DNA from: Brevibacillus panacihumi W25
Lineage (GTDB): Bacteria; Bacillota; Bacilli; Brevibacillales; Brevibacillaceae
Direction: 5' to 3'
Assembly: GCF_000503775.1 (NCBI RefSeq)
Contig: NZ_KI629782.1
Location: 558,001-622,000, forward strand
DNA: 64,000 nucleotides
Part shown: positions 5,517 to 5,862 of the stretch, piece after piece
Numbering within the stretch: position 1 is the stretch's first letter
Layout: every line of letters begins with the position of its first letter
Notes under the pieces: model-generated
Database searches by the model: none
Seen by the model: the letters and a program-made list of their open reading frames with translations, nothing else
What the model was told of the DNA's origin: nothing
Program-made: the position numbers and the translations under genes

Positions 5517-5645
5517 TCAGGCACTAGCTTTTGTAATGGATATGTTGCGATGTTTTAGTTCAAGGCTCAGCAGTTCAATAAAAGCTGCGTCCAATTGAAG
5601 GTCGATAGCACGATGATATACTTCTATCAACATTTGATCGCTCAT
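5517..5645 (-). CDS. sda: Sda, sporulation histidine kinase inhibitor (42 aa)
   Basis: The frame encodes MSDQMLIEVYHRAIDL, then DAAFIELLSLELKHRN, which has the helical-hairpin pattern of Sda (SDELLIE..Y..A..L....FI.LL..E...R). Sda binds the dimerisation helices of the KinA-type kinase and blocks the phosphorelay when replication is perturbed. AGGGTG lies 6 bases before the ATG. A 17-spaced promoter and a run of DnaA-box-like sites lie upstream, as in B. subtilis where DnaA activates sda. The call rests on pattern and context. Confidence 0.85.
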   Translation of the reverse strand: MSDQMLIEVYHRAIDLQLDAAFIELLSLELKHRNISITKASA

Positions 5646-5685
5646 GTATTTCACCCTTGCTCACCCCCATCCTTGTGTTGAGCCC

Positions 5686-5714
5686 ATTTTATCAGATGCT
5701 TGTACATCGAACAA
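5686..5714 (-). promoter_or_regulatory. Sigma-A type promoter of sda
   Basis: TTGTTC, 17 bases, then TAAAAT on the minus strand, ending 40 bases before the sda start codon. The DnaA-box cluster lies just upstream. Confidence 0.6.
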
Positions 5715-5722
5715 TCGTTCCT

Positions 5723-5832
5723 CTATCCACAGGCCTTGTGGGCATCATGTGGGTATCTTGTGGGCAAGCTGTGAGCAAATGCCAGAAAAGCTGGTAACGT
5801 CACTGTGCATATCGTTGACAAAGATATCCACA
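5723..5832. promoter_or_regulatory. Cluster of DnaA-box-like sites upstream of sda
   Basis: Six 9-mers resemble TTATCCACA or its complement: CTATCCACA (5723), TGTGGGCAT (5737), TGTGGGTAT (5748), TGTGGGCAA (5759), TGTGAGCAA (5770) and ATATCCACA (5824). Four of them are spaced exactly 11 bases apart on the same strand. B. subtilis sda is known to be transcriptionally controlled by DnaA through such boxes. Confidence 0.7.
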
Positions 5833-5862
5833 ATTAGTCGATATTTGTCGAAAGAAAAAATG

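Follow-up and report, generated by a model that had tools for sequence, protein, structure and literature searches.

The sda control region of Brevibacillus panacihumi W25 is best read as a small, origin-like DnaA assembly site, a reading to which we give a probability of about 0.8. sda is a sporulation checkpoint gene: in Bacillus subtilis, its product inhibits the kinases that activate Spo0A and thereby blocks spore formation. Within the 64,000-nucleotide stretch that we analyzed (the window, to which all positions refer), seven DnaA-box-like sites lie upstream of the gene. Six of these had been named in a first-pass annotation of the sequence, and all six are where it placed them; the seventh (TGTGCATAT) had been overlooked. 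The exact 11-bp period claimed for the sites at 5737, 5748, 5759, and 5770 is confirmed, and these four share one orientation and are separated by 2-bp spacers. DnaA, LexA, and Spo0A are all encoded in the genome, and its DnaA has the GGRDHTTVIHAHEK recognition motif.

Layout of the sda control region

Read toward sda, the region begins with tandem 0A-type boxes and a strong inverted DnaA box, followed by one forward box and a drifting gap of ~25 bp; then come four forward boxes (5′ ends at 5778, 5767, 5756, and 5745) and, 5 bp on, a second strong inverted box. At the promoter end, a predicted LexA operator lies 1 bp past this proximal inverted box and is followed by an extended −10 (Table 1). 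Neither this operator nor the 0A boxes had been noted in the first-pass annotation.

Table 1. Features of sda and its control region. Identities are mean pairwise values among 15 diverged Brevibacillus promoters; offsets are from the proximal box.
Feature	Position	Strand	Sequence	Remarks
sda coding sequence	5517..5654	-		45 aa from GTG; 42 aa from internal ATG at 5645
Predicted extended −10	5686..5694	-	TGATAAAAT (TGNTACAAT in relatives)	Conserved in the 25-genome alignment
LexA (SOS) operator, predicted	5708..5721	-	GGAACGATTGTTCG; core GAACNNNNGTTC	
Predicted −35	5709..5714	-	TTGTTC	17 bp from the −10, within the LexA operator; predicted from sequence, as is the start site
Proximal strong DnaA box, inverted relative to the array	5723..5731	-	TGTGGATAG (listed as CTATCCACA)	97% identity
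Array box 4	5737..5745	-	ATGCCCACA (listed as TGTGGGCAT)	Offset 14; 82% identity
Array box 3	5748..5756	-	ATACCCACA (listed as TGTGGGTAT)	Offset 25; 81% identity
Array box 2	5759..5767	-	TTGCCCACA (listed as TGTGGGCAA)	92% identity
Array box 1	5770..5778	-	TTGCTCACA (listed as TGTGAGCAA)	Offset 47; 80% identity
Seventh DnaA-box-like site	5804..5812	-	ATATGCACA (listed as TGTGCATAT); NNATCCACA in relatives	79% identity (measured on 5805-5813)
Distal strong DnaA box, inverted	5824..5832	-	TGTGGATAT (listed as ATATCCACA); TGTGGATAA in most relatives	91% identity (measured on 5825-5833)
Tandem Spo0A-type 0A boxes, predicted	5834..5852	+	TTTGTCGAA (5844-5852) and degenerate TTAGTCGAT (5834-5842)	10 bp apart

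The 11-bp array exceeds chance. Across the 5.5-Mb genome, the pattern CACA-N7-CACA-N7-CACA occurs at the sda promoter only (as two overlapping matches), and the backwards control has none. Dinucleotide shuffling was also applied to the 261-bp promoter region itself, in which the letters needed for the array are abundant: of 20,000 shuffled sequences, one had a three-unit array and none had four units; shuffles of the whole window contained a mean of 0.017 three-unit arrays.

The identity of the gene itself, named as sda in the first-pass annotation, stands (Pfam PF08970, E = 6.9e-15), and a single orthologue is present in every same-genus genome searched, including the first 25 (that of the window among them); the closest named Sda protein, from B. 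panacihumi, matches it at 100% identity. The length of 42 residues given there does not hold up as well: in an alignment of 25 upstream regions, relatives retain GTGAAATAC while most have a Leu codon in place of the internal ATG, which favors the GTG at 5654 as the probable start and, hence, a protein of 45 aa.

The −35/−10 spacing of the predicted promoter can likewise be read in the B. subtilis-group promoter. A sigma-70 scan did not report the proposed sda promoter, since its −35 matches at only 3 of 6 positions. Of 100 sda promoters, 82 contain the LexA core with up to one mismatch, in each case at a distance of 11 or 12 bp from the start of the proximal DnaA box; in the other 18 it was unmatched. 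The genome's own lexA also has this core, 122 bp from its Pfam match on the upstream side, and no exact copy was found upstream of recA within the DNA fetched there. The predicted operator is therefore one that the lexA promoter shares and that is placed to block the sda promoter, as would be expected of a LexA regulon member. LexA control of sda has already been reported in B. subtilis (PMC11925247, PMC5445613), so this result is a confirmation to which a position is added.

Conservation in Brevibacillus and across the class

In a set of 15 Brevibacillus promoters with all pairs below 85% identity, the proximal box averages 97% pairwise identity, the distal box and the LexA operator 91% each, and the array boxes 80 to 92%, versus 41% for the array spacers and 46% for the ~25-bp gap; similarly, the −10 region (5684 to 5692) has 84% identity versus 55% in the stretch that joins it to the LexA site. 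The first-pass annotation had proposed that an alignment in which phased sites are conserved while their flanks drift would support its reading, and this is what the genus displays. The departures from consensus are themselves retained: array box 2 is TTGCCCACA, rather than the consensus TTATNCACA, in 12 of the 15 promoters. The reading of these sites as DnaA boxes is well supported by their sequence, by their conservation throughout the genus while the spacers drift, and by their positions, which are homologous to those of consensus DnaA boxes in other families and in the B. subtilis group.

For the class survey, 100 sda upstream regions were extracted, and layouts could be measured from 27 families, constituting 36 family or genus groups. 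Most groups share one plan: inverted boxes, both strong, stand at the distal and proximal ends, forward boxes precede the proximal one on its upstream side, and a LexA operator covers the predicted −35. Forward boxes lie 15, 26, and 37 bp from the proximal inverted box in 28, 28, and 27 of the 36 groups, respectively (14, 25, 36, and 47 bp in the Brevibacillus family), and in shuffled regions no one offset was common to more than four groups. Several other groups are without parts of the layout, and the module was not found at the paralogous sda copies L033 and L008. The form of the module is constant while the gene upstream of sda varies (rocD in Brevibacillus, a divergent gene that we take to be yqeG in Bacillus-like genomes, and others elsewhere); on account of these varying neighbors, we rejected the idea that the array belongs jointly to a neighboring divergent gene.

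Distances between the distal and proximal boxes change almost entirely by whole helical turns, clustering at 80 to 81, 89 to 92, 99 to 102, and 111 bp; the values 114 and 121 bp were each seen once, outside these clusters. Several lineages depart from 90 bp, and most of these departures are no more than 1 bp off a whole multiple of 10.5 bp. When 399 genomes were searched with any distance allowed over a 30-bp range, the 73 matches had lengths of only 95, 104 to 107, or 114 to 116 bp. The uniform null used for this periodicity ignores ancestry, which is offset by the departures from 90 bp in multiple lineages and by the any-distance search. Common ancestry and duplication of 11-bp units may explain part of the spacing classes; they are insufficient for all of it because the step in the Brevibacillus family is 9 to 10 bp and the distal-box layout there is also different.

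Box strength follows a pattern of its own. Mean mismatch counts for array slots 1, 2, and 3 are 1.4, 1.8, and 1.9, and 31, 32, and 35 of the 36 groups, respectively, have an imperfect box in the slot; the form of the departure is conserved per lineage and variable across lineages (TTGCCCACA in Brevibacillus; TTATAAACA and TTATCCAC[T/C/G] in Bacillus-like families). With one to three mismatches from consensus, some array boxes may not bind DnaA alone. Proximal boxes, when checked by anchoring on LexA, have zero or one mismatch in 80 of 80 cases, whereas the strength of the distal box is a biased measure, as this box was chosen at no more than one mismatch.

Arrays of this type also occur away from sda. 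Phage-like holin/amidase genes at L141:3006 (G002:C1, about 667905) contain or adjoin another 11-bp array of DnaA boxes (CACAGGTTTCTCACAGCTTATCCACA, then an inverted TGTGGATAA); the same motif recurs at L142:3012 and is among the matches listed for 13 Brevibacillus genomes, and the block of boxes in L142 is retained despite flanks that differ from those in L141. This may be a prophage site that is controlled by DnaA or titrates it. A separate observation concerns a PF00308 search of the window's genome, which returned identically scoring DnaA-like ATPase matches in 265-aa open reading frames at nine places on contigs C1, C4, C5, and C6, a pattern that suggests an insertion element present in multiple copies and encoding an IstB-type ATPase.

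Proposed assembly of DnaA and its alternatives

Under the mechanism that we propose, ATP-bound, oligomerization-competent DnaA would occupy both strong inverted end boxes and then spread cooperatively from the proximal box along the weak same-direction boxes (an order of assembly suggested by the layout), with the helical-turn spacing placing DnaA subunits on one face of the DNA. The finished complex would activate a promoter that combines a poor −35 with an extended −10. Weak array boxes would make firing depend on DnaA that can oligomerize, that is, on the replication-starting state, and could account for a preference for the ATP form. LexA over the −35 would repress the promoter until DNA damage removes it. 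Since spore-forming relatives share this layout, we read sda as a gene that probably registers the states of replication, damage, and sporulation at one short promoter.

An alternative for the array is that DnaA activates sda through the two strong boxes alone and that the 11-bp repeats are left over from tandem duplication and serve no function of their own. The array unit is indeed 11 bp, one lineage (f1g21) has an extra copy together with an end-box distance of 111 bp, and, when the DnaA concentration is high, B. subtilis sda DNA can be recovered with just two boxes (PMC4447404). At low DnaA, however, boxes 4 to 7 of B. subtilis sda are required (PMC4447404), the 15/26/37 offsets hold in most of the 36 groups, and the units are not recent copies, because the boxes are conserved while the 2-bp spacers between them drift; we regard a functionless remnant as unlikely. 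Less probable still is that the array is bound by a protein other than DnaA that recognizes CCCACA-type repeats. The Brevibacillus array boxes do resemble TTGCCCACA rather than TTATNCACA, but the B. subtilis sda region is bound by DnaA (PMC4447404), the boxes at homologous positions in other families are consensus or near-consensus DnaA boxes, and DnaA in the window's genome retains its recognition motif.

The predicted sporulation input comes from the 0A boxes. The exact tandem GTCGANNNTTGTCGAA is unique in the genome, and TTCGACA, which we take to be the Spo0A recognition sequence, is present in 27 of the 36 groups within 48 bp of the distal box, on its upstream side, at a distance that is fixed per lineage (15, 20, or 26 to 29 bp); we estimate the chance rate for such placement at well below 1 in 100. 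The box was not found in the f4 family and others. An 0A box with a tandem partner 10 bp away in a genome encoding Spo0A is what would be expected of a Spo0A regulon member, the second half-site here being degenerate. The element TTTGTCGAA might instead be a weak DnaA box or a piece of something unrelated, which we consider the less likely account, if one to be taken seriously: TTTTCGACA differs from TTATNCACA at just two positions, boxes for Spo0A and DnaA are alike at oriC (PMC5295017), and nothing in the literature searched, in which subscription journals were thinly covered, places Spo0A at sda. Against this, the conserved letters fit an 0A box (TTCGACAAA), with a G where DnaA needs a C, and the second half of the box in the Brevibacillus family is exactly 10 bp off. 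Bound at an 0A site beside the distal DnaA box, Spo0A~P would probably feed the sporulation state to sda, most simply by hindering DnaA, because the Brevibacillus 0A pair lies 1 bp from that box; the direction of this effect is conjectural. A sequence resembling an origin Spo0A box (TTTCGACAAG) also appears among DnaA boxes upstream of dnaA in L118 (minus strand, ~2740 to 2770).

More tentatively, and with the odds somewhat against the claim as a whole, sda promoters throughout the class may be miniature orisome-like sites, in which selection keeps the inner boxes weak and phased between strong ends so that they report oligomerization-competent ATP-DnaA, with LexA and Spo0A~P at fixed places within ~150 bp. 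Spo0A would then feed back directly on the inhibitor of its own activation, a link predicted by the conserved Spo0A-type box and not described in the literature that we searched.

Comparison with known systems

Activation of B. subtilis sda by DnaA is known, and so is its control by LexA. A class-wide spacing grammar, conserved weakness of the array, and an sda Spo0A box were all absent from the literature searched, and of these the grammar and the Spo0A box look new. The first-pass annotation had seen in the window a compact version of the B. subtilis checkpoint, which is not borne out: the B. subtilis group, for which L050 was identified through a published pair of sda primers, is built in the same way, its three forward boxes following at 11-bp intervals (offsets 15/26/37), so the form in the window is neither compact nor special. 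Both have strong inverted end boxes, a LexA site (11 bp from the start of the proximal box in L050), and an 0A-type box upstream. Brevibacillus differs in having four array boxes rather than three, an end-box distance of 100 to 101 bp rather than 91, no box 11 bp inside the distal box, an 0A pair that adjoins the distal box, and rocD upstream in place of the divergent gene presumed to be yqeG. At ywlC, a known DnaA target and DnaA-bound region in B. subtilis, one Brevibacillus (L143:2761; G024:C16:43235-43260) yielded a match to the same array search, three near-consensus DnaA boxes at an 11-bp period that precede a ywlC-like gene, whereas the window's genome has no strict array in this region.

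In B. subtilis, the DnaA boxes of sda are bound in vitro, boxes 1 and 2 are needed in vivo, and the promoter is among the strongest DnaA regions, with a ~50-fold preference for ATP-DnaA, the basis of which could not be defined by the authors from so few regions (PMC4447404). Our proposal is that this preference arises from the weak, phased boxes of the array; the conserved grammar (strong inverted ends, weak phased interior, and whole-turn distances) supplies a candidate that is both specific and mutable.

The closest structural parallel is with Escherichia coli oriC, whose low-affinity arrays consist of four sites in one direction with spacers of exactly 2 bp, on the same helix face and beside strong sites, and are reported to prefer ATP-DnaA (PMC4451416). 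The sda array has each of the sequence features of these arrays (C3-C2-I3-C1, beside R4, and R5M-tau2-I1-I2), namely weak sites, one orientation, 2-bp spacers, and a strong neighbor. A local replication origin was considered for the region and rejected, as dnaA is on contig C5 and sda on C1. Unlike those of oriC, the sda array is part of a promoter, and its gap to the strong box is 5 bp rather than the 3 bp between R4 and C1; its grammar suggests that cooperative assembly of the origin type serves here as a transcription switch.
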